A DNA stretch of 64,000 bases, from positions 1-64,000 of the forward strand of contig JACMNO010000069.1 in NCBI GenBank assembly GCA_014378485.1. Direction: 5' to 3'. The notes under the pieces were generated by a model. The model was not told the DNA's origin. It saw only the letters and a list, made by a program, of their open reading frames with translations, and made no database searches. Both the position numbers and the translations under genes were made by a program. The first letter of the stretch is position 1. Every line of letters starts with the position of its first letter. Shown here in pieces: positions 19,905 to 61,729 of the stretch. This DNA comes from Bacteroidia bacterium. Lineage in GTDB: Bacteria > Bacteroidota > Bacteroidia > B-17B0 > Aurantibacillaceae.

Positions 19905-19961
19905 TACAATAAAATTATTTACAAAGATACAAATGATCTATAAATTAAGTTTAACAAATTT

Positions 19962-20056
19962 GCGTGAGCGATGCAAGCGAAAATCCTTTTGCCTGCCTTT
20001 TGCAAAAGATTGCAGCGGGCAGCGCGACGGTGCTGCCTCTTTGCACCGGCACGCCC
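19962..20056. repeat. GC-rich palindromic intergenic element
   Basis: A 95-bp element bounded by GCGTGAG and CACGCCC. It contains two hairpins: AATCCTTTTGC (19982-19992) with GCAAAAGATT (20002-20011), and CGGTGC (20028-20033) with GCACCG (20043-20048). GC content is far above the flanks. On the minus strand it begins GGGCGTGCCGG and later has GGATTTTCGCT, like elements scattered widely between Bacteroidota genes. It starts 3 bp after the aminotransferase stop, so it lies in the leader of the PglC-like gene on the polysaccharide transcript. Confidence 0.7.
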
Positions 20057-46164: not shown

Positions 46165-48180
46165 TTACTTTATTTCAGTTATCTTTAATTCTACCCTTCT
46201 ATTCTCCTGTCTTCCAACCGGATTATCTTTACCATTTGCTTTTTTATTCGCAGATACCGGCATTGATTTGCCATACCCTTTTGCCTGCATTCTATCTGCC
46301 GAAATACCACTTGCAATAAGTTTGTTAACAACAGCCTGCGCTCTTTCTTCAGAAAGCTTCTGGTTATAAGCTACATCACCTTTGCTATCGGTGTGTCCGG
46401 AAATCTCAACTTTAAGATTGGGATTGCTTACCATTAGCTGAACAAGGTTCTTAATTTCCACATTAGATAAAGGCCTGAGAGTTGACTTATCAAAATCAAA
46501 GAATATGTTATTTAACGTGATTTTTGAGCCAACCACAATTGGTTTCATATCAATAGTTCTGTTGAGTTCATAATAATTAGATTGTTTTGGAATCTCCATA
46601 TTTTCAGAATAAAACAAATGATCCGCTGCCTGGTAGGTAATATTATAATTTTTTCCGGGAGTCAATATAAATAAAAACTGTCCTGTTTTATTATTGGTAT
46701 GATAAATACCTGCAATTTGGCCAGTTTGGTTATCAGTTACTGTTATTAAAACCTTTTTAGCTGGTTTACCCGATTCATCATTTACAGTACCTTTCATCAA
46801 TGTAAGTGCTGTTTCTTTTCGATCCAAATAGGTTACCATGTAATTATCTTTTTCGCCAAAACCACCAACCCGATAAGAAGACAAATAAGCTTTACGACTA
46901 TCAGGGCTCACTACATAATAAATATCATCATCCGTGGTGTTCACCGGATGTCCTGCGTTAACAGGTTCCGACCAGATTCCTTCATCAGATTGTAAGCTTG
47001 TAAAAATATCGAAGCCACCCATACTATTGTGACCGTTTGAACTGAAAGACAGAGCTACGCCATTTGGATGGATAAATGGAGAATCCTCATCATAGGCTGT
47101 ATTTATATTCGGACCCATGTTCACCGCTGCTTCCCAATCACCGCCAATTTCTCTCTTACTGGTATAAAGATCTCGTCCGCCAAAACCGCCCGGCTTATCA
47201 CTTGTAAAGTATAAAGTTCTTTCATCAGCTGAAATGAATGCGCTTGGTTCCCAGTTTTTAGTATTGATATTATCGTTCAACTTAACCGGCTTACTCCACA
47301 CATCGCCGTCAAGGGAGGTACTATAAATATTACCGTCACCCATATCATCTTTGTAAATGAGAATATTTTGTCCATCAGGAGAAATCCCTACCGATGCTTC
47401 GTGCCATTCAGAGTTAATTACTGACCCTACATTAGATGCTTTTGACCAGCCTGTCTTTGATTTAACCGACATAAAAATATCTTCCATGTAATTTCCATCC
47501 GCGTCTTTTTGTGCACCTGTAGTTTCAGGTCTGCGTGAGGTAAAATATATTGTACCCTGATCAGCAGATAGAACTGGTGAATAATCAGCATAAGGAGAGT
47601 TAACTGTTGAGCCAAGGTTTTCAATTTTTAATTTTACAGGGCTGGCAACTAAAATCTTCGCTGTATTACACATTTCTATTCTGCGGTTTGCCTCTGCAAT
47701 AATGATTTTATTATTGTGCTTTGATTCATTAGACAGTGAGAGAAATTTATTATAGGCAACAATGGCTTTATCAAATTCGTAATTTAAATGGTAAGCGTCA
47801 CCAAGTATTTTATAAGAGAGTATTGGTGCATTCTTTTCTTTATAAGAGTTTTCATCACACTTACCTGAAGTGGAAGAAACCGCTTTTTCAAGATGAGGAA
47901 TTGCCTGTAACCTGTCCGTTCGGGAACTAACATAACATACGCCGAGCTTGAAATGTATATTCATATTTGTTGGCTCCTGTTTTGACAGATCTAAAAATAT
48001 TGGTCTCGCTGAAGCGTACCCTAATTTAGACAGACTCATGGATTCATTCTTTCCATCCATGTAAACCTCTGAAAAAATCTTTTCGGCACGGTTAAAATCG
48101 TTTTCGAAATTAGAGTTCATTTGTGCTTTTGCACAAATACTTAATAAGAATAGAGAAGTAAGAGTCAGGATTTTTTTCAT
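46165..48180 (-). CDS. PorE-like OmpA-family protein (TPR, PD40 propeller, CRD, OmpA)
   Basis: A 671-aa envelope protein. The signal peptide MKKILTLTSLFLLSICAKAQ is followed by TPR-like helices (about residues 30-170) and a beta-propeller of PD40/WD40-like blades marked by repeats such as LYFTSDKPGGFGGRDLY (about 190-450). Next come a carboxypeptidase-regulatory-like sandwich (about 460-540) and an OmpA peptidoglycan-binding domain (VEISGHTDSKGD, about 555-671). This order is that of PorE of the type IX secretion system, which links the trans-envelope machine to peptidoglycan. PorE itself is a lipoprotein, whereas a lipobox is not evident here, so a paralogue with a structural role is possible. 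Confidence 0.82.
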   Translation of the reverse strand: MKKILTLTSLFLLSICAKAQMNSNFENDFNRAEKIFSEVYMDGKNESMSLSKLGYASARPIFLDLSKQEPTNMNIHFKLGVCYVSSRTDRLQAIPHLEKAVSSTSGKCDENSYKEKNAPILSYKILGDAYHLNYEFDKAIVAYNKFLSLSNESKHNNKIIIAEANRRIEMCNTAKILVASPVKLKIENLGSTVNSPYADYSPVLSADQGTIYFTSRRPETTGAQKDADGNYMEDIFMSVKSKTGWSKASNVGSVINSEWHEASVGISPDGQNILIYKDDMGDGNIYSTSLDGDVWSKPVKLNDNINTKNWEPSAFISADERTLYFTSDKPGGFGGRDLYTSKREIGGDWEAAVNMGPNINTAYDEDSPFIHPNGVALSFSSNGHNSMGGFDIFTSLQSDEGIWSEPVNAGHPVNTTDDDIYYVVSPDSRKAYLSSYRVGGFGEKDNYMVTYLDRKETALTLMKGTVNDESGKPAKKVLITVTDNQTGQIAGIYHTNNKTGQFLFILTPGKNYNITYQAADHLFYSENMEIPKQSNYYELNRTIDMKPIVVGSKITLNNIFFDFDKSTLRPLSNVEIKNLVQLMVSNPNLKVEISGHTDSKGDVAYNQKLSEERAQAVVNKLIASGISADRMQAKGYGKSMPVSANKKANGKDNPVGRQENRRVELKITEIK

Positions 48181-50794: not shown

Positions 50795-53700
50795 TTACCT
50801 GAACAAAGTAATATGTCCTGCTTTATTAATGGTTCCGTTCTTCGTCTGAACCTCTATAAGATATGCATAAAGACCATCCGGAACAGGTGCACCTCTAAAG
50901 GTTCCATTCCAACCATCTTTTATATCATTGAGTTCAATAATCTTTTCGCCCCAACGGTTATAAATCAGGCAACTAAATGCTCCTAAACAGGTTCCCTGTG
51001 CATACCATTTATCATTAACTATATCATCATTTGGAGTAAATGCATTAGGAATATATAGTGTAAAATCCTTATTGTTTTCGGGCATAACTAAAATAAAACC
51101 CGTTTCACAGTTATTGGAATCAATTATATTAAGGGTGTAATTTCCTGAACTCAGCATTTCAAAACTCATATCAGAAGTATATGGGGTATTATTAAAGCTG
51201 GTCAAATAAGGTGCTGTTCCTCCTTTAATGTTATTGAGAATAAACTCTCCATCATCACTCTCACAATTTGGTGTATTTGTTATCAGGTCAATCGTTGAAT
51301 GAGTTATTGTTCGGCCCACAAAAAGCGTTTGTGTATATGAACATCCGCCAGCATCTTTTACCGTCAGCGTATAGCCTCCCGATGCTAAATTGCTGAAGGT
51401 TGTTAATGAAGAAAAGCCGGAATTATTAAAGTTATATTGATAAGGAGAAGCACCGTTAATAACACTAGTAATCTGCACCTTTCCACTATCGCTCCGACAC
51501 AACACATTTTTTATAGTCAGGTTTATTCCTGTGGGTCCGCCAACTAAACCAACAGCAAATACAGTAGATGTGTTACACGCTCCATTTGTGATTGCTAAAG
51601 AATAATTACCGGGTGTTAAATTACTAGCCGAATTTGTTGTTGAAACATTTGGATTCCATGAATAGCTACTTGCCGACAAATTATCATTCACTTGAATACT
51701 TCCTGTATTACCCGCACAATTAGATGGCGCAATGGTGCTGGATGTTATGGACAAAGGCATTGAACCCAAAATAGCGATGACCGTTGATGTCTGGCATACT
51801 CCATTAGTTGCTGTAACAGTATAATTACCTGGGGCTAAAGTATTAGCTGTGTTTGTAGTAGAAGAAACTCCTGTACTCCATGAAAATGTATTAGCAGATG
51901 AAGAACTTATTGTTGCAGAGCCGTTAATTAACCCACAGGTAGTATTAATTACAGAAGAAGATGTAATTGTTGGAGAAGTATTAACGCTAACTGTTACCAC
52001 AGCTGTACTTGAACATGAATTTATACTTCCTGTTACTGTATAATCTGTAGTTACATTTGGAGAAGCAACAACGACACTTCCAGTTGAGGAAGACAGAGAA
52101 GATGAATTTGCCCATGCATATGAGGTCGCACCACTAACTGTTAAAGTTGCCGAAGAATTTGCTCCCGGACAAATAGTTGTATTGGAACTGAGCGCAAGAG
52201 CTGGAGCCGCAGAAACACTTATGGTAATAACCGCAGGACTTGAACATAGTGTCGATGTACCTGCTGCACTATAAGTTGTGGTAATGGTTGGACTGGCAAC
52301 TACTACACTTCCTGAACTGCTGCTTAATGTGGCTGCGGGGGTCCATACATACATTGCCGAACCATTAGCTATTAATGTGCTTGCTTGTCCTGAACATAAT
52401 AACGTATTTCCTGTTACAGAAATAGTAGATGTAGTAACCACGCTTAGGGTTGAAATGGCCTGGCTTGTGCACGTTCCAACGACCCCTGTGACTGTATAAT
52501 CTGTAGTAACCGATGGATTTACCGAAATAGAATTCGAGACAACTCCATTACTCCATGAATAACTAGCTGCACCTGTTGCTGTAAGCGTTGTAGTTACTCC
52601 AGGGCAAATAGTAGATGTTGGTGCCACAGCTACACCATTAGATACAGAAAAAGTTAAAGGTCCTGCAGCAATTCTACAGGAAGGTGAATTGATATTACCA
52701 TTTTCAGAAATTAATAATTGATACATTCCCGCCTGGGAAGAAATAACAGAACTTATACTATAGTTTGGAGAAGTTGCTCCTGAGATATTACTCCAGGTTA
52801 CACCTCCATTACTACTATACTGCCATTGATATTGGGGCGATACATAACTACCGGAAGTGTAGGCTGATTGCAAGGTAAGTGCTTCTCCAGAGCAAAATAC
52901 AGTTTGATTAGGCACTATACTCAATGCTACTCCAGGTCCACAGGGAGAAAGAGAAATATCATCAACAACATAATCATTGCCACATCCGCCAGGTGCGTTA
53001 TTAATTAATACAATATCAACACTGGTTTGACCTGAGCCAGTAGTAAAGGTAAAACCATACTGCAACCATGGTAATGATGTTGCTGTTGGGGCAACCTGCA
53101 AATTACCCGATGTAACAGAACCTTGCACGGTTCCCAAAGGAAATTCAGTTTGAAATTTAATATTTGCATAAATATAACTTGAGCCACAAACAGAACTAAC
53201 CGCTGAGGGGGAATTATTATTTGCTAAATATGCCGAAAACACATACGTCGTACCTGGACATAAACCTGTTAAGTGTTTTCGATATACTTCAGCAGCAGGA
53301 TAATCAGAATTAACAACCATCATGTAGCCATTGGTATTTCCTGTATGATCATTATTATCATTTACATATCCTGCATTAGTACCAGAAGGATTACTCGATC
53401 CTGCAATAACATAGGTTCCATTATTAGGAACACCCTGTTGGTAAATATAATTAGTAACTCCCGGTGGTAAAGCAGGGCCGTATAGAGAAGTGCCGGAGCC
53501 AAAATCTTCTAAAAAAACAGGGGCCCCTAAAGTGCCGGAACAAAGAGGCGGTGGTTGGCAATTTACACTAATAGTCTGAGAAATAATTGGACCGCATGGA
53601 GCATTAACTTGAACTGATAGGGTATAAATTCCACCAACTAAATTTGTCAAAGAATTTGTCAGTGCCGATGTATTTGTAGTTTGACCAATCATAATTCCGT

Positions 53701-54610
53701 TCGAGTCAGTCCAACTGTAGGATAATACAGGAGAAGTCATCGTAGTGCTTACAGAAGAGACGGCTGTTGCATTAGCACCATTACAAGTGGTTGTTATATT
53801 TACTGAAAAACTACCTGATCCGGGACAAGCAGATCCAGTCAAAGTAGGTTGCTGCACGGACCAAATCGTTGAATTAACTAAAGTACCATTATTTCCATTT
53901 GAGGTGCCGTCTAACAAAATTGTACCAGACGACTGATTACAACGGTAATATGACAATAAATCTGTTTCATTTCCAGCCAGACAATGATTATAATCTGATA
54001 AGATCTCAGAATCAGTGCGGACTCTTTTCCATATCCGAATTTCATCTTCGTTACCACCCAAAGCCAAATTAGGTGAGTAACTAAGATGGCCTTGTACGTT
54101 TCGTGTAATTGGATCTGAATTCATAATTTTAGTATCAACTAAAATACCGTTTAAATACAATTTAGCAATATGCGTATTATAATTCATTACGCCAGCAGCG
54201 TGGTACCACGTTCCTAACAGAAAACCTCCAGGCGGGGCATAATCACAGGCAACATTACTCGGCCCAGTTGTAGAATTAGGTCCATCAACTTTAAATCCTA
54301 AACGATTGATAGGAAAATTTCCCATTCCTAAATTCCAACCAAAACCCAAGAATATGTCTTCATAAACAACGGGATCTTCATTCATTATTAAAGATCTGGC
54401 TTTTGAACCAAAGGCTGTATTTAATTTGAACCAACATTCCCAGGTAAACCCGTTACTACTATGCATCTGATTATTAAGGGGCAAGAGAACTTCATCACTG
54501 CTATTATTAAATTGTAATGAACCGCCACAGGGCTGAGCCAATAGGACGTTAAATCCTAAAACATTTAAGAGCAAAAAAAACACATAAATATAAATTTTAT
54601 TTTTTTTCAA
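50795..54610 (-). CDS. Giant secreted LamG protein with gliding-type T9SS sorting domain
   Basis: A 1271-aa secreted protein. The signal peptide ends near FNVLLAQ, and residues ~30-230 are a LamG/concanavalin-like domain (SSNGFTWECWFKLN). Residues ~365-560 are a second sandwich region (FLEDFGSGTSLYG, then VDDISLSPCG), then an Ig-like module starting FCSGEALTLQS, and several repeats of about 75-80 residues rich in Ser, Thr and Val with CP-type Cys and TYSAAGTS/DYTVTGS turns. The C-terminal ~85 residues (LYIPNAFTPNDDIVNDKW to GHITLFR, with YNRWGEKI) are the gliding-motility C-terminal domain that directs T9SS secretion. It probably acts as an adhesin or glycan-binding surface protein. Confidence 0.9.
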   Translation of the reverse strand: MKKNKIYIYVFFLLLNVLGFNVLLAQPCGGSLQFNNSSDEVLLPLNNQMHSSNGFTWECWFKLNTAFGSKARSLIMNEDPVVYEDIFLGFGWNLGMGNFPINRLGFKVDGPNSTTGPSNVACDYAPPGGFLLGTWYHAAGVMNYNTHIAKLYLNGILVDTKIMNSDPITRNVQGHLSYSPNLALGGNEDEIRIWKRVRTDSEILSDYNHCLAGNETDLLSYYRCNQSSGTILLDGTSNGNNGTLVNSTIWSVQQPTLTGSACPGSGSFSVNITTTCNGANATAVSSVSTTMTSPVLSYSWTDSNGIMIGQTTNTSALTNSLTNLVGGIYTLSVQVNAPCGPIISQTISVNCQPPPLCSGTLGAPVFLEDFGSGTSLYGPALPPGVTNYIYQQGVPNNGTYVIAGSSNPSGTNAGYVNDNNDHTGNTNGYMMVVNSDYPAAEVYRKHLTGLCPGTTYVFSAYLANNNSPSAVSSVCGSSYIYANIKFQTEFPLGTVQGSVTSGNLQVAPTATSLPWLQYGFTFTTGSGQTSVDIVLINNAPGGCGNDYVVDDISLSPCGPGVALSIVPNQTVFCSGEALTLQSAYTSGSYVSPQYQWQYSSNGGVTWSNISGATSPNYSISSVISSQAGMYQLLISENGNINSPSCRIAAGPLTFSVSNGVAVAPTSTICPGVTTTLTATGAASYSWSNGVVSNSISVNPSVTTDYTVTGVVGTCTSQAISTLSVVTTSTISVTGNTLLCSGQASTLIANGSAMYVWTPAATLSSSSGSVVVASPTITTTYSAAGTSTLCSSPAVITISVSAAPALALSSNTTICPGANSSATLTVSGATSYAWANSSSLSSSTGSVVVASPNVTTDYTVTGSINSCSSTAVVTVSVNTSPTITSSSVINTTCGLINGSATISSSSANTFSWSTGVSSTTNTANTLAPGNYTVTATNGVCQTSTVIAILGSMPLSITSSTIAPSNCAGNTGSIQVNDNLSASSYSWNPNVSTTNSASNLTPGNYSLAITNGACNTSTVFAVGLVGGPTGINLTIKNVLCRSDSGKVQITSVINGASPYQYNFNNSGFSSLTTFSNLASGGYTLTVKDAGGCSYTQTLFVGRTITHSTIDLITNTPNCESDDGEFILNNIKGGTAPYLTSFNNTPYTSDMSFEMLSSGNYTLNIIDSNNCETGFILVMPENNKDFTLYIPNAFTPNDDIVNDKWYAQGTCLGAFSCLIYNRWGEKIIELNDIKDGWNGTFRGAPVPDGLYAYLIEVQTKNGTINKAGHITLFR

Positions 54611-54659: not shown

Positions 54660-54688
54660 CAAATTTAATTGAATCATTAATTTTTCAA
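54660..54688 (-). promoter_or_regulatory. Promoter of the giant LamG protein (TTG-N18-TAAATTTG)
   Basis: On the minus strand TTG (54686-54688), 18 bp, and TAAATTTG (54660-54667) match the consensus exactly, with the same spacing as the rpmE promoter. The leader would be about 45 nt. Confidence 0.65.
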
Positions 54689-54828
54689 TTCGGTAGTTGT
54701 TAATTAAACCTATTAATTTGATAAATGGTAAACTTTCATGAAAAGTGTTAAACGTATTAATGTGCAAATATACTTAGATAAAAGTGGAATAGTCTTACCG
54801 TTAAAGCAGTTTTTAGCACATTTCCGTT

Positions 54829-55578
54829 TTAAATCTTCATCCGGTTTATCACCTCAGACTTTTTCCGTCTTGAAACTTCATAAAAACCACTGTTTTGTAC
54901 TTCCAGATTGCAAATATCACCTTTACTGTATGAAATAATGTAATCCGCGTTAACGATTACACTTTTGCTTATTCGTATAAAATTTCCTGCTTTTTCAAGA
55001 ATTTCTTCAAAAAGTTTTAATTCTTTCGATGAATAATAATTTTTCCCATCATCTAATTTTATTTCGCAGGTTCCTCCTTTCGCTTCAACAGAAACAATGT
55101 AGTTAATGTTTAAAAGTATTACCTTATCATTATGGTGAACGGAAATTTTATTAATAACATCATTCTTTTCATCTAAGGTCTTAATAAAATGAAATACACT
55201 ATTACTTTTTTCATTCGAAGTAATTTTAAAAATTGCTTTATCAACAGTTATGATTAGCTTACTATAATCAATAGGTTTTAAGATGTAGCCTAATGCGTTA
55301 AATTCAAAAGCGGTAATAGCGTATTCATTAAAAGCAGAAACAAAAATCACTTCAAAATCAATTCTGCTAAACATTTTTAATAAATCGAACCCACTTTTGC
55401 CAGGCATTTTAATATCCAAAAAAATAAGCTGAGGCTCCAACTCTTTTATTTTATCAAATGCATCGATTGCTTTCTCGCACTCAGCGATAACATTAATCAA
55501 AGGACAATATTTACTCAATAGTGTTTTTAATACATTCCTATTATGAACCTCGTCGTCTATTACAATTGCTCTAATCAT
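54829..55578 (-). CDS. LytTR-type response regulator
   Basis: A 249-aa two-component regulator. The receiver domain has the acidic pair at residues 8-9, phosphoacceptor Asp55 in LIFLDIKMPGKSG, and the conserved Ser/Thr and Lys region around VSAFNEYA and LKPIDYSK. The C-terminal ~100 residues are a LytTR DNA-binding domain (NYIVSVEAKGGTCEIKL, FIRISKSVIVNADYI). It starts 2 bp from the histidine kinase stop and is surely its partner. Targets may include the adjacent rfb genes and the giant LamG protein. Confidence 0.93.
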   Translation of the reverse strand: MIRAIVIDDEVHNRNVLKTLLSKYCPLINVIAECEKAIDAFDKIKELEPQLIFLDIKMPGKSGFDLLKMFSRIDFEVIFVSAFNEYAITAFEFNALGYILKPIDYSKLIITVDKAIFKITSNEKSNSVFHFIKTLDEKNDVINKISVHHNDKVILLNINYIVSVEAKGGTCEIKLDDGKNYYSSKELKLFEEILEKAGNFIRISKSVIVNADYIISYSKGDICNLEVQNSGFYEVSRRKKSEVINRMKI

Positions 55579-55580
55579 AT

Positions 55581-57089
55581 CTATTCCTTTACAATATCCA
55601 GATGTATTCTAATCTTAGTTCCAATCTGCAGTTTCTCAGAGTTAAATAAATCAACTATTTCCAGTTTGTAGTTTGATGTCTTATATAATTTATTCAGGCT
55701 TTCTATTTTATCAGAAATTAATTTAGTTCCTTTTGAATCCTCATTCTTTATTTTTTTTAAATCCCTACCAATACCATTATCTTCAATTTCTACAACAGGA
55801 TAACCATTTTTCAAGCTAAAGGTTATTTTTAATTCCGGTTTCCTCAGTCCATCCAATTGCAATAATCCATGCCAGATCGCGTTTTCAATAAACGTTTGTG
55901 TAATTAATGCCGGAATCAGAAAGTCGTTCGGAATAATTTTTTCATCTATATATAGGTCAAAGTTAAATTCATTTTTAAAACGAAGTTGCTCTAACTCAAT
56001 ATTCAATTTTATGATCTCAATTTCTTCTGATAAAGTAATAAAATCTTTATTGGAATAATTTAATATTTGTCTTAAAAAAAAACTAAACTTTGCAATGTAA
56101 CGGCTAGCCTCATCAACATTGTTTTTAAATATTAAATCCTGTATAGCAGCCAGACAATTTGATATGAAATGCGGATTCATTTGAGCTTTGACAACTTTTA
56201 ATTCCAATTCAGTAATTTTATTCACTAATTCAAACTGCTCTTTTTGTTTCTCCAAAGCCTTTTTATTCCTCAAATTAAAAAGTATAGTAATTGCAATTAT
56301 AATAATAATTACTATTCCATATTTTACAACACCCGTAAAAATATTTTTCAGCTTATTCGGATTGGGGGCATTATATAAATCTTTAATTTCTTTATCAGAT
56401 AGTATTCTGTGAAAAAATTGTATGTCATCAAAAACTCCTTGTGAAAACCTTTCATTTTTAGTACTTGCTGTATGCCCTATCATCACGGAATCCGAAGCCA
56501 AATACTGGGTTCTAAAACCCTTTCTCATCTTATTTTGTAACTCTCCATCAACATAAAATATTAAATAGTTATCGTCAAAAGCCATAACCAAATGATGCCA
56601 AGTACCGAAAATGAAATTATCTTCAGCAGCCACACTAACGTCTTTTAAAGAATCTTGAGATGAATAAGCAATTAATCTTTTTGCATAGCAATCATAACCT
56701 ATTGCATAAGCCAAATTAAAATCAAACTCCTGACCATTTTTAGTATATACGATTGGATTATTATCATATCCTTTTCCTGAATAAACTCTTCTGTCCAAAT
56801 TAACCCATAACGAAACAGTTCCTTTTTCAGGTTTTAACAATTTTGATGTAGAAAGATTTAAATAACTTGATACATTTCCATGAATATAAATTGCAGATTT
56901 TACGTTACCAAAACGATCTGCGGTGAGAGTTACTCCTTCTGATCTAGGAAATACTCTATTATCTTTTTCTTTAATCTCATGTTTATTAAAATCAAAGGTT
57001 ATTACAATAGAAGAGTCTATTAGGGAAAAACAAATAAAAGAGCAGAAGATGAAAAATATCGATAATGCTTTATTAATCAATGGAATCAT
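55581..57089 (-). CDS. LytS-type histidine kinase with extracytoplasmic LamG domain
   Basis: A 502-aa sensor. It has a signal or first helix at residues 6-26 and a LamG/concanavalin-like sensory domain at about 55-240 (KGTVSLWVNLD, TWHHLVMAFDDNYLIFYVDG). One membrane helix follows at about 256-272, then a cytoplasmic coiled coil and a LytS-type kinase. The phosphoacceptor is His307 in KAQMNPHFISNCLAAIQ and the ATP site includes IEDNGIGRDL near 437. The LamG domain probably binds a carbohydrate or cell-surface polymer. It is 17 bp after rfbH, so it appears to share the rfb transcript, and it overlaps no other gene. Confidence 0.9.
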   Translation of the reverse strand: MIPLINKALSIFFIFCSFICFSLIDSSIVITFDFNKHEIKEKDNRVFPRSEGVTLTADRFGNVKSAIYIHGNVSSYLNLSTSKLLKPEKGTVSLWVNLDRRVYSGKGYDNNPIVYTKNGQEFDFNLAYAIGYDCYAKRLIAYSSQDSLKDVSVAAEDNFIFGTWHHLVMAFDDNYLIFYVDGELQNKMRKGFRTQYLASDSVMIGHTASTKNERFSQGVFDDIQFFHRILSDKEIKDLYNAPNPNKLKNIFTGVVKYGIVIIIIIAITILFNLRNKKALEKQKEQFELVNKITELELKVVKAQMNPHFISNCLAAIQDLIFKNNVDEASRYIAKFSFFLRQILNYSNKDFITLSEEIEIIKLNIELEQLRFKNEFNFDLYIDEKIIPNDFLIPALITQTFIENAIWHGLLQLDGLRKPELKITFSLKNGYPVVEIEDNGIGRDLKKIKNEDSKGTKLISDKIESLNKLYKTSNYKLEIVDLFNSEKLQIGTKIRIHLDIVKE

Positions 57090-57106
57090 AATACTTTAAA
57101 AAACTA

Positions 57107-58414
57107 TTATCCTAAAATTTCATCGAAACATGAGATCATGTACCTCATCATTTCATCATTGATCATTGGCGTCACGCCAATCCAAAATGTATCATTTACA
57201 ATAATATCTGTATTGGTTAAGTTACCAATAACCCGATAATCAACGCCTTTAAAATAAGGTTGCTTCCGAATGTCGCCTGCAAATAATAAGCGGGTAGCAA
57301 TTTTTTTCTTATCCAATTTTTGAACTAACTCATTACGAGTAATGCCTGCATCTTTTTTAACAGTAATTAAAAATCCAAACCATGAAGGATTTGATTTAGG
57401 AGATGCTTTAGGCAATATTAATTTGTTCGTATGCTTTAATAAACCTTGTTTTAACACATCAAAATTATGCCTTCTAATCTTTATGAACTCGTCGAGTTTT
57501 TCCAACTGAGCTAAACCCAAAGCGGCCTGCATGTCAGTAATTTTTAAATTAAATCCTTGGCGGGAGTAAATGTATTTGTGGTCATAACCCATTGGCATGT
57601 CTCCTAACTGCTGACAAAAACGCAAACCACAGGTATTATCCTTTCCTGGTTCGCACCAACAATCACGTCCCCAATCCCTGAAGGACTCTGCTATTTTTTT
57701 TAATTTAGAATTAGAGGTATATACCGCTCCTCCTTCTCCCATTGTAATGTGATGAGCCGGATAAAAACTTAAAGTAGCAATATCACCAAATGTACCAACA
57801 TGCTGACCGTTATAAGTCGCACCTAATGCATCACAACAATCTTCCATGAGCCACAAATCATGTTTTTCACAAAATGCAGTAACGGCGTCTAGATTAAAAA
57901 CATTCCCCATAGTATGTGCAATAACCACTGCTTTTGTTTTAGGAGACAATGCTTTTTCAAGATATGTAACATCAATCTCATAATGAGGAATAGTCACATC
58001 TACAAATACAGGTATGGCACCATATTGCAAAATAGGATTCACGGTAGTTGGAAAGGAAGCTGCTACAGTAATGACTTCATCACCAGGCTTGATTGCTTCA
58101 TCACCTAGTTCTTTGGCTGTTAAGGCGGAAAAAGCAACTAGATTAGCTGATGAACCTGAATTAACAGTTAAAACTGATTTTATATTAATATACTTCGCTA
58201 ATTTTTTTTCGAACTCGGCATTAAATTTACCAGTTGTAAACCAAGCGTCTAAAGCAGAATCAGTGATGTATTGCATTTCTTTGTGATCGAATACTTTTCC
58301 ACTTACCGGGACAGCGGATTCTCCCGGAACAAATGCGTTTTGTTTAAATGCTTCATCGTGATACTCTTTTATAAGAGAATGGATTTGATGTTTAATATCT
58401 AGTAATTTTGACAT
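57107..58414 (-). CDS. rfbH: CDP-4-keto-6-deoxyglucose 3-dehydratase (RfbH/E1-like)
   Basis: A 435-aa PMP/[2Fe-2S]-dependent dehydratase that removes the 3-hydroxyl of CDP-4-keto-6-deoxyglucose on the way to 3,6-dideoxyhexoses. The key feature is His in place of the usual PLP-binding Lys in [14 protein letters not shown] (His221/222), which identifies dehydratases of this group. The Cys cluster C252/C254, C262 and C267 lies in [17 protein letters not shown]. Reduction of the product normally requires an E3 (RfbI-type) reductase, which is not in the window. It follows an interrupted gene and precedes the LamG kinase. Confidence 0.94.
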
Positions 58415-58470
58415 AATTTATTATTTTTTTGAAACATATAAGTCATAAAAAGACAAATAAGATTGGTTGG

Positions 58471-58884
58471 TTAATCATTTAGTACTCTGTATAATTCATT
58501 TACATATGTTTTCTGACCCTCATTATAAATATTTGTACAATTAAAATTAATTAAAATTCCAAATGGTGCTTCTAATAAATTCATATAAGTTAGTAATTAC
58601 GCTTCGTGAATTGGCAATATCTTTTCAACTGCTTTCAATTCAACTACTATAATATTTTCTATAAATAAATCACAACGTAATTCTGCATCTAACTGCAAAC
58701 CTTTATAATTAACAGCTACTATCAATTCAGACATAAAAGAAATCTCACGAATATTCAATTCATGAATCAAACACTTATGATAAACGCTTTCTAATAAACC
58801 GGGCCTAAGCGACTTATGCACTTCTATAGCAGCGCCATTAATTTGATAAGTAAGATTCTTTATTTGTGTTTTTGTTAAATGCAT
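58471..58884 (-). pseudogene. GxxExxY protein, interrupted by one nonsense codon
   Basis: A member of the GxxExxY family (GLLESVY present). From ATG 58884 it encodes 95 residues ending ELKAVEKILPIHEA, then TAA at 58597-58599. The reading frame continues in phase for 41 more codons (LLTYMNLLEAPFGILINF and onward) to a second stop at 58471. The homologous position usually holds Gln (HEAQLLTY), so a single CAA-to-TAA change explains it. A TTG further upstream (58920) overlaps rfbG and is not the likely start. Family function is unknown, though the fold resembles PD-(D/E)xK nucleases. Confidence 0.8.
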
Positions 58885-58916
58885 TTCTTTTTCTGAACTT
58901 TTCTGCCTTTTATGGT

Positions 58917-59999
58917 TCAATTATTCATGAGGCAGTACTCTTTTATCTGTTTTACCCTGCTTTTATATACATCGGCTTCCTGTTCATTTTCCTGTATGTA
59001 TCCATCAACCGTAAACTTTATGGTTTGTTCAAAATTTAGTTTTGGTTTCCAGTTTAATTGGTTGACTGCTTTTGTAATGTCCAATTTTAATAAGCCAGCT
59101 TCGTGTAATTTATCTGTTACTTTCGGCGCATCTACTTTTAAAGTGGGTATCGATTTTTTTACTTCTAAAACCACATCATGAACACTATAATTTTCAAAAG
59201 CCGCAGGACCAAAATTCCATCCTCCTGAAAATGTTTTTCCTTGAAGAAAAAGCTTCTCACCTAATCTCATATATCCAAAAACAGGTTCTAACACAAATTG
59301 CCAGGGACGCACGGAGTTTGGATTTCGAATGACCAATGTTTGATTAGCATTGTGCGCACGCATCATATCCGGAATTACCCTGTTTTCAGCCCAATCACCG
59401 CCTCCGATAACGTTCCCCGCCCTACCCGACGCCACATGAGCCTTACCCTCTTTACTAAAAAATGATTTAATATAGGAATTAGTAATTAATTCGGAACAAC
59501 CTTTTGATGCACTGTATGGATCATCGCCACCCATTGGGTCATTCTCACGATAACCCCAAACCCATTCATTATTTTGGTAACACTTATCAGTAGTTACATT
59601 AATGGCTACTTTTACTGAAGGACAATTCCGAACCGCTTCAAAAAAATTAACCGTTCCCATTAAATTAGTTTCGAAATTATAATGAGGATTATTATATGAA
59701 TCAATCACTAATGGTTGGGCTGCCATATGAAACGCCATATCCGGTTTTACTTCATCAAAATAGTTTTGTAATGCTTCTTTATCCCTTACATCACCAAATC
59801 TATTATAAATTTTTTTAGATAAATTAGTTGTCACGAAATTATCTTTTTCGGCAGTTGGCTCCAAAGCGTAACCATGCACTTCCGCCCCAAGTTCTCTTAA
59901 CCAAATGGCCATCCACGAACCTTTAAAACCGGTATGACCTGTTAATAAAATCTTTTTATTCTGATATATTCCCGAAAACAGATCTAATTGGCTCATCAT
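58917..59999 (-). CDS. rfbG: CDP-glucose 4,6-dehydratase
   Basis: An extended SDR of 360 aa that converts CDP-glucose to CDP-4-keto-6-deoxyglucose. The cofactor loop is LTGHTGFKGSW, the catalytic YxxxK is in DPYSASKGCSE (about residue 157), and TTDKCYQNNEWVWGYRE is the RfbG-specific block. The N-terminus has two Met codons; the first is used here. It lies 3 bp after rfbF. Confidence 0.95.
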   Translation of the reverse strand: MMSQLDLFSGIYQNKKILLTGHTGFKGSWMAIWLRELGAEVHGYALEPTAEKDNFVTTNLSKKIYNRFGDVRDKEALQNYFDEVKPDMAFHMAAQPLVIDSYNNPHYNFETNLMGTVNFFEAVRNCPSVKVAINVTTDKCYQNNEWVWGYRENDPMGGDDPYSASKGCSELITNSYIKSFFSKEGKAHVASGRAGNVIGGGDWAENRVIPDMMRAHNANQTLVIRNPNSVRPWQFVLEPVFGYMRLGEKLFLQGKTFSGGWNFGPAAFENYSVHDVVLEVKKSIPTLKVDAPKVTDKLHEAGLLKLDITKAVNQLNWKPKLNFEQTIKFTVDGYIQENEQEADVYKSRVKQIKEYCLMNN

Positions 60000-60002
60000 A
60001 AT

Positions 60003-60782
60003 TTATTTCCAGATATTCCAGTCAGCAGAACCACTTTGCCACAATGCTTCTAATTCAATTTTATCCCTGATAGCATCCATGCATTTCCAAAAACCATTAT
60101 GTTTATATGAGGAAAGCTGACCGGCATTTGCGATGTCTATTAACGGTTTCTTCTCCCATTGAACATCATCCATATCACCTTCCAGATATTTAAAAATACC
60201 CGGTTCCAGGACAAAAAAACCGCCATTGATCCAAACACCATCACCCATAGGTTTTTCCTGAAACGCTTTTACTAAGCCATTCGCATCAATCTCTACATTA
60301 CCAAATCTACCAGGCAGTTGAATAGAAGTTAAAGTAGCTATTTTTCCTGATTTTTTATGAAATTCAATCAAGGCATTAATGTCTATATCTGCTACTCCAT
60401 CACCATACGTCAGCATAAAAGGTTCATTTCCTAAATACTTTTGAATTTTTTTTATCCTTCCTGCTGTATTGGTATTGACCCCTGTATCAACCAAAGTCAC
60501 TTTCCAGTCCTCGGAACCGGAATTATGCACTTCCATTTTATTATTTGCAAGATCAATGGTCACGTCAGTTTGGTGTAAAAAATAATTAGCGAAATATTCT
60601 TTGATCACATAACCTTTGTAGCCACAACAGATTATAAACTCATTGAACCCATAATAGGAATATGTTTTCATGATATGCCATAAAATTGGTTTTCCGCCAA
60701 TTTCAACCATCGGTTTTGGTCTTACGTCAGTTTCTTCTGATAATCGGGTCCCTAGTCCCCCGGCAAGTATAACTACTTTCAT
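60003..60782 (-). CDS. rfbF: Glucose-1-phosphate cytidylyltransferase
   Basis: A 259-aa nucleotidyltransferase making CDP-glucose from CTP and glucose-1-phosphate, the entry step of the CDP-deoxysugar route. The signature LAGGLGTRLSEETDVRPKPM is complete, followed by GGKPILWHIMKTYSYYG and LTYGDGVADID with the metal Asp. It lies 8 bp after a family 2 glycosyltransferase. Confidence 0.96.
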   Translation of the reverse strand: MKVVILAGGLGTRLSEETDVRPKPMVEIGGKPILWHIMKTYSYYGFNEFIICCGYKGYVIKEYFANYFLHQTDVTIDLANNKMEVHNSGSEDWKVTLVDTGVNTNTAGRIKKIQKYLGNEPFMLTYGDGVADIDINALIEFHKKSGKIATLTSIQLPGRFGNVEIDANGLVKAFQEKPMGDGVWINGGFFVLEPGIFKYLEGDMDDVQWEKKPLIDIANAGQLSSYKHNGFWKCMDAIRDKIELEALWQSGSADWNIWK

Positions 60783-60790
60783 AAAAAAAT

Positions 60791-61729
60791 TTAAAAATTA
60801 ATTCGTTCTCTTTCGATTACCAAAGGGCGCTTACGAATTTGTGTATGTATTGCCCCAATATATTCCCCAATAATTCCAATAAAGAATAATTGTACTGATG
60901 AAAAGAAAAAGATTCCAATTACCATAGGAGCTGTTCCAATTTGAAATTCATACCAATAAACCATCTTATAAATAAAATAACCAACTGCTACCAAAAAACT
61001 TATAATCGCCGAAAAAAATCCAACAAAAGCTGAAAGCCTTAATGGTAATTTTGAATGGCTTGTAAAACCAAGCATAGCCACATCGTATAACTTAAAAAAA
61101 TTTGAACTTGTCTTACCCGCAAATCGTTTAGGCTGGGTGTAAGGAATTTCATATCTGTTAAATCCAAGTTCAGTTACAAGTCCACGTAAATATGGATATT
61201 GATCTTCTAAATTTCCTAAAATTTTTATAAATTTTTGATCGTATAATCCAAAACCAGTAAAATTCTTAATAATTGGTTCCCCATCAGATGCACTAGAAAG
61301 TAAATTGTAAAAAAATTTACGAACACCAAACATAAGAGCGTTTTCTTTACTTTGTGTTTTTACACCTATAACGATTTCATAACCTTCTTCCCACTTTTTT
61401 ACAAAATCGAGAATTAATTCCACTGGATCCTGAAAATCAGCAACTAAATAAACGACAGCATCTCCTTTACATTGAACTAATCCATAAAATGGAGATTTTA
61501 TCCAGCCAAAATTTCTTGCATTAACAATAATTTTTACGTTCTTATTGTTTTGGGCTATCCCTTTTAATATTTCTAATGACCTATCAGTAGAATGATTATC
61601 TATAAAAACATGTTCATAATTATAATCAGGCAAATTATCAAATATTTTTTTGACTGCATCTACCAGCAATGCAAGATTTGACTCTTCATTAAAACAGGGT
61701 GTTAATATTGAAATGAGCTTTTTTGTCAT
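60791..61729 (-). CDS. Glycosyltransferase family 2, DPM/GtrB-like with membrane C-terminus
   Basis: A 312-aa polyprenyl-phosphate glycosyltransferase-like enzyme. ISILTPCFNEESNLALLVDAV and VYLVADFQDPVELI (metal site) mark the catalytic domain, PYLRGLVTELGF is typical of DPM/ArnC/GtrB members, and two C-terminal helices (about residues 230-300) anchor it. It probably loads a sugar onto undecaprenyl phosphate for periplasmic use. It is the first gene of the leftward rfb unit. Confidence 0.88.
   Translation of the reverse strand: MTKKLISILTPCFNEESNLALLVDAVKKIFDNLPDYNYEHVFIDNHSTDRSLEILKGIAQNNKNVKIIVNARNFGWIKSPFYGLVQCKGDAVVYLVADFQDPVELILDFVKKWEEGYEIVIGVKTQSKENALMFGVRKFFYNLLSSASDGEPIIKNFTGFGLYDQKFIKILGNLEDQYPYLRGLVTELGFNRYEIPYTQPKRFAGKTSSNFFKLYDVAMLGFTSHSKLPLRLSAFVGFFSAIISFLVAVGYFIYKMVYWYEFQIGTAPMVIGIFFFSSVQLFFIGIIGEYIGAIHTQIRKRPLVIERERINF

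Follow-up and report, generated by a model that had tools for sequence, protein, structure and literature searches.

Several described regulatory systems invite comparison with the locus treated here, a LamG-bearing LytS kinase and its LytTR regulator within 64,000 nucleotides of DNA from a Bacteroidia bacterium of the Aurantibacillaceae (assembly GCA_014378485.1, contig JACMNO010000069.1, positions 1 to 64,000; this whole stretch is called the window). BtsS/BtsR is another LytS/LytTR system, and in the LytTR Regulatory Systems the regulator's membrane partner is an inhibitor and no kinase. PorX/PorY two-component control acts on the machinery of the type IX secretion system (T9SS); the window likewise has two-component control linked to T9SS, but its predicted targets are cargo and surface proteins instead. 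As described in PMC4847170, YpdA/YpdB of Escherichia coli resembles the window pair in combining a His_kinase (PF06580) sensor with a LytTR regulator and in a half-site of the ACC...T.A type, whereas the window kinase differs by its extracytoplasmic LamG sensor. LytTR operators are presented there as two repeats of 9–11 nucleotides spaced 11–13 nucleotides, and YpdA/YpdB-type sites as two repeats 11–13 base pairs (bp) apart (PMC4847170). The window site shows one clear half-site plus an A-tract within 25 bp. The LytTR Regulatory Systems, as reported in PMC6193735, also have LytTR sites just upstream of promoters, but pair the regulator with a membrane protein where the window has a true kinase. 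Among the papers searched, none combined LamG, histidine kinase and LytTR, and none combined laminin G, sensor histidine kinase and Bacteroid; LamG domain, histidine kinase and Bacteroidetes occur together in PMC10434189. The operator core did not occur in the three papers listed out of 52,974.

We consider it likely that the window encodes a LamG-type LytS/LytTR system which activates surface-protein genes and which is probably co-transcribed with rfbFGH without controlling them. In the proposed circuit, a signal reaching the lectin-fold LamG domain, predicted to be periplasmic, would cause the kinase to phosphorylate the LytTR regulator, which would bind a 25-bp operator 22–23 bp upstream of TAnnTTTG −7 boxes and switch on genes for secreted or surface proteins, the adjacent T9SS type B LamG protein first. 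Gene anatomy, operator conservation, promoter spacing and the nature of the targets were established by computation; binding of the site by the window regulator, activation by it and co-transcription of the pair with rfb we infer. The features of the locus, in the order of the minus strand, are as follows.

60791..61729, minus strand: GT2 glycosyltransferase, whose gene opens the rfb operon (Glycos_transf_2, E 3e-23)
60003..60782, minus strand: rfbF, glucose-1-phosphate cytidylyltransferase (TIGR02623, 411 bits, NCBIfam cut-off 300)
58917..59999, minus strand: rfbG, CDP-glucose 4,6-dehydratase (TIGR02622, 466 bits, cut-off 278)
57107..58414, minus strand: rfbH, activity from the family name alone (NF011936, 713 bits, cut-off 423)
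55581..57089, minus strand: LamG-LytS sensor histidine kinase, 502 amino acids (aa) (PF13385 and PF06580)
56382..56870, minus strand: LamG (Laminin_G_3) sensor domain, kinase residues 74–236 (E 3e-16)
54829..55578, minus strand: LytTR response regulator (Response_reg E 4e-19, LytTR E 1e-12)
54796..54820, minus strand: candidate operator TGTGCTAAAAACTGCTTTAACGGTA, 25 bp, kept in orthologous loci
54765..54772, minus strand: −7 box TATATTTG, 23 bp past the operator, same spacing at other sites
50795..54610, minus strand: T9SS type B surface protein, 1271 aa, N-terminal LamG, predicted target (TTG start as listed; CHU_C / TIGR04131)

The initial annotation had placed a LamG-LytS kinase 17 bp past rfbH, a LytTR regulator 2 bp further on and a secreted protein starting with LamG next, and profiles and coordinates confirm this arrangement; a short GxxExxY frame lies between rfbG and rfbH, and the T9SS gene is set apart from the regulator by 218 bp, in which it has candidate −7 boxes of its own. 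The kinase matches Laminin_G_3 with 60.4 bits (cut-off 27.6) and His_kinase (PF06580) at residues 296–375 (E 6e-20); its HATPase_c match (E 0.036) stays below the cut-off of that model. The residues for catalysis and ATP binding (the histidine H307 as well as N403, D437, G439 and G441) do not vary among 14 aligned kinases. Because a signal-like N-terminus and, after LamG, a single hydrophobic helix at about residues 255–275 can be recognized (both read by eye), the LamG domain is predicted to be periplasmic. An adjacent receiver-LytTR regulator stands beside 53 of the 54 LamG kinases whose loci were examined, and the window regulator itself is matched by the BtsR model with a score below its cut-off. 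By domain content, the kinase and regulator are a LytS/LytTR two-component system, with phosphotransfer and DNA binding as predicted activities.

The candidate operator came to light when sequences past the end of the regulator gene were aligned between orthologous loci, some of which also carry it ahead of the kinase gene. In most orthologues, the sequence TAnnTTTG, which is the Bacteroidota −7 box, follows 22–23 bp past the operator (L045 and L053 have no clear box). Within the window the operator scores 36.7 and the next best match 11.9; across the whole genome, five sites were found with at most three mismatches and none with a reversed-pattern control. The other strand of the operator reads TACCGTTAAA, a clear LytTR-type half-site close to published ones such as ACCGCTTAT (PMC6193735), and a conserved A-tract is also part of the site. 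The table of the same source contains the box TATCTTTG, which ends its Bacteroides LytTR examples (PMC6193735). The four distant sites of the genome precede a DUF7793 protein (122 aa), a small lipoprotein (recognized by eye), a propeller protein of 421 aa bearing a T9SS tail, and a protein of 522 aa that has a signal-like N-terminus but matches no Pfam family at E 0.001, all of which are further probable targets here. A GTT-type repeat pair with 20-bp spacing (54728–54756), located with a LytTR pattern immediately past the −7 box, was rejected; the scan that located it gave no counterpart in the upstream regions of L044 and L052.

The gene behind the window operator encodes a protein with a type B sorting domain (TIGR04131, 56.7 bits, cut-off 35) and a signal-like N-terminus (read by eye). 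Its LamG domain was not reported by a Pfam search at E 0.1, but an iterative LamG profile search of the kinase loci places it at residues 52–209 (domain E 5e-13), and the second half of the domain was also recovered by profile alignment (probability 91.5%). A conserved operator with a −7 box precedes this surface-protein gene and supports the earlier suggestion that the gene is a target.

To extend the analysis to relatives, a site model built from 11 training sites was run on 87 genomes of the family, which are also all genomes of the order examined (with stricter filters for more than 40 of them), and 64 stretches from 17 genomes were fetched around model matches. This yielded 73 sites of at least 21 bits at places outside training (6 of which have the same letters as a training site), comprising the non-training matches at E ≤0.05, except those of G056, and part of the weaker ones. 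At 22–23 bp, 50 of the 73 show at least five of the six −7-box positions and 22 show all six, while in 500 rounds of base-shuffled downstream sequences a mean of 2.8 and a maximum of 9 sites had the box. A same-strand gene of at least 70 aa follows within 350 bp at 57/73 sites. Signal-peptide-like proteins, called by a simple hydrophobicity rule, make up 39/57 of these targets vs 91/297 other genes (p 1.4e-7), and T9SS tails, called by profiles grown from Pfam-labelled examples, 16/57 vs 21/297 (p 2.7e-5), the other genes being open reading frames (ORFs) of at least 90 aa in the fetched stretches except L134.

Related targets in different genomes keep their sites as well. This holds for the 522-aa protein of G000, G078 (81% identity) and G076 (67%), for the small lipoprotein of G000 and G074 (46%), for a single-domain response regulator shared by G074 and G078 (56%), and for the window surface protein together with its G071 relative (67% over 356 aa). 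A lipoprotein relative in G047 (30%) is a weaker case, its site lying 281 bp away and inside an ORF as called. In two pairs of related targets (28% identity; 42%, repeat proteins), one member carries a site with the middle CTGCTTTAA and the other with CCCGTTTAA; this swap between related targets suggests, but does not prove, that a single regulon includes both kinds of middle. Small proteins similar to single-domain response regulators stand behind sites at L172:4550-4918 (Pfam) and L183:772-1149 (by similarity to that of L172), and others, recognized by eye, at L179:9601-10008 and L195:1653-2126. Such targets suggest further signalling steps in the regulon. Since the candidate sites precede genes for secreted and surface proteins and not sugar genes, the circuit probably alters the protein coat.

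The pathway genes for CDP-3,6-dideoxyhexose, rfbF, rfbG and rfbH, are present as judged by matches above curated cut-offs, and the rfb operon may provide a sugar for the surface on which the predicted targets are expected. The initial annotation named conservation of the kinase beside rfb genes in relatives as a check, and the linkage does recur: the kinase directly follows rfbH in 5 of 28 rfbH loci from two genera (G000, G074, G077 and G078 in one, G050 in the other). These 28 loci are the matches over the curated cut-off; L126 ends inside rfbH, so that its next gene is not seen, and L122 and L123 look alike. In an 18-row kinase tree the rfb-linked label requires three changes, and a single origin of the linkage may be possible on this basis. 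The ORFs around the kinase of G068 agree with those of G077 in order and length, but without rfbG and rfbH between the kinase and a 566-aa gene, whose G077 counterpart is RecJ-like. The GxxExxY (PDDEXK_3) frame in the window (58597–58920, minus strand), which overlaps the end of rfbG by 4 bp, has 107 aa compared with 137 aa in L099, L115, L122 and L123 and appears shortened.

The kinase-regulator pair is probably co-transcribed with rfbFGH, and because it would then be made on the rfbFGH transcript, the sensor would be expressed together with the CDP-sugar pathway. Isolation of the kinase from rfbH by a terminator and a promoter had been considered at the outset. The terminator part is not borne out, as no terminator-like site was found in the rfbH-kinase interval; a promoter may lie inside rfbH, as one TAnnTTTG is found within 420 bp before the kinase. 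In one scheme proposed by the initial annotation, LamG would read an rfb-dependent surface glycan and the regulator would feed back on rfbFGH. Such a feedback is in keeping with the linkage of rfbH and kinase, seen in five genomes from two genera. It also fits G071 and G072, where rfbH is directly followed by genes similar to the window's T9SS protein, and G084, where a LamG/T9SS gene takes this place, each with no kinase between. However, the window scan found no operator site upstream of GT2/rfbF, where only the −7-like TATTTTTG is present, the sole strong site in the window precedes the T9SS gene and the other four sites of the genome (≤3 mismatches) lie elsewhere. A role of the operator in the rfb operon promoter was accordingly rejected, and regulation of rfbFGH by the pair finds no support. 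Moreover, of 11 kinases of the window clade in the tree, five are not beside rfb and one stands at a contig start, and, with LamG predicted to be periplasmic, a finished glycan on the outer surface is not the first ligand to be expected. We therefore regard glycan feedback as decidedly improbable.

Which regulator uses the operator was assessed from its distribution. A regulator at least 50% identical to that of the window occurs in 12 genomes, 7 of which carry non-training sites at E ≤0.05 (34 sites), vs 8 of the remaining 75 genomes (16 sites; p 5e-4). The window genome has nine LytTR genes, and only the window's site, out of the genome's five, adjoins one of them. A comparison of orthologues, covering 30 of 38 LytTR places, found that five of the other regulators (C96, C22:148k, C36, C32:177k and C90) have orthologues, 69–98% identical, in one or more of four members of the genus that lack strong sites; in these four the window regulator has no match above 37%. 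Both observations speak against the idea that the pair is a mere passenger of the rfb locus, with a different member of the same LytTR group using the operator. In favour of that idea, three LytTR regulators (C75, C22:158k and C32:179k) are still candidates after the comparison, G076 and G079 carry sites although no close regulator was found in them (the assembly of G076 is fragmented and may lack one by chance), and 7 of 19 LamG-less LytS/LytTR pairs (20 loci given) carry sites of at least 17 bits at their edges. On balance, we consider the passenger explanation unlikely.

The sites at LamG-less pairs are among several findings that weigh against the proposed activation of surface-protein genes by the window pair. 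Sites are also present in eight genomes that lack a close regulator (16 at E ≤0.05, four of them in G076), from which it follows that related regulators can share the operator, and 5/12 genomes with a close regulator have no non-training site at E 0.05. In the kinase's own clade, 11/11 sites are at pair edges and 9 of the 11 loci with a recognized pair have one (12 given), but this count is circular because 10 of the 11 sites trained the model; L043 and L048 of this clade have no operator site, nor do 3/3 loci of the next clade (4 given). Sixteen of the 73 sites in relatives have no same-strand gene of at least 70 aa within 350 bp, and 12 fall within ORFs as called. In the window, a second TAnnTTTG (54660–54667), without operator, is nearer to the T9SS gene, and a second repeat at the published spacing of 11–13 bp (PMC4847170) is not evident beside the one half-site. 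In favour of the proposal, of the eight sites scoring at least 17 bits at the non-LamG loci, seven lie at pair edges, which occupy 20,307 of 301,108 bases; the operator is thus common to a group of LytTR regulators, and its tie to such regulators does not depend on the loci used for training. These LamG-less pairs point to a wider LytTR operator family in the order; operator variants stand at the pair edges in L227, L230, L231, L234, L236, L238 and L240. In the second clade of LamG kinases, the 25-bp operator is absent from the pair edges in 37/37 loci, with one site of at least 17 bits elsewhere in them. The pair edges of this clade (L058–L094) instead show the motif AAAAAcCnACCACTTATAAA, a LytTR-type half-site found by a home-made search without shuffled control.

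Full-length LamG kinases are present in many of the 87 family genomes, with several per genome in some. A whole-genome search at class level (345 genomes, four candidates scored per genome, E ≤1e-75 kept) gave one full-length kinase outside the family (G310) among the matches listed, and on these matches such kinases look nearly confined to this order. A single scan of a collection of genome contigs found seven loci, one with the LamG part. None of 68 plasmid records covered 80% of the query, and the best 20 of the 68 cover either the kinase part or the LamG part.

LamG neighbours mark LamG kinases, and T9SS neighbours do not. LamG genes make up 13/101 immediate neighbour genes of LamG kinases, compared with 0/36 neighbour genes of other LytS kinases (p 0.02) and 3/271 distant genes (p 6e-6). 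T9SS tails occur among the immediate neighbours at the same rate beside pairs with LamG (31/101) and without it (10/36, p 0.83), with 12/271 among distant genes, and T9SS adjacency was dropped as a mark of LamG kinases. Since LamG genes adjoin LamG kinases and none adjoins the other LytS kinases, we tentatively raise the possibility of lineage-specific, matched-lectin circuits, in which the LamG of the kinase would resemble that of the surface protein switched on and both would recognize the same class of ligand.

For this uncultured order of Bacteroidota, the analysis provides a testable candidate operator and a predicted regulon, together with a likely function for LytS/LytTR pairs in the control of secreted and T9SS surface proteins, and regulon annotation elsewhere in the order can make use of the candidate site. 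Pair, operator and targets also offer a direct handle for experiments. Elsewhere in the window, an OmpA-family protein (46165–48180, minus strand) resembles the CHU_0125 and PorE models with scores below both curated cut-offs, and a Flavo-1 RNA (Rfam RF01705) was detected at 19957–20033 on the plus strand with 43.5 bits against a gathering score of 42.

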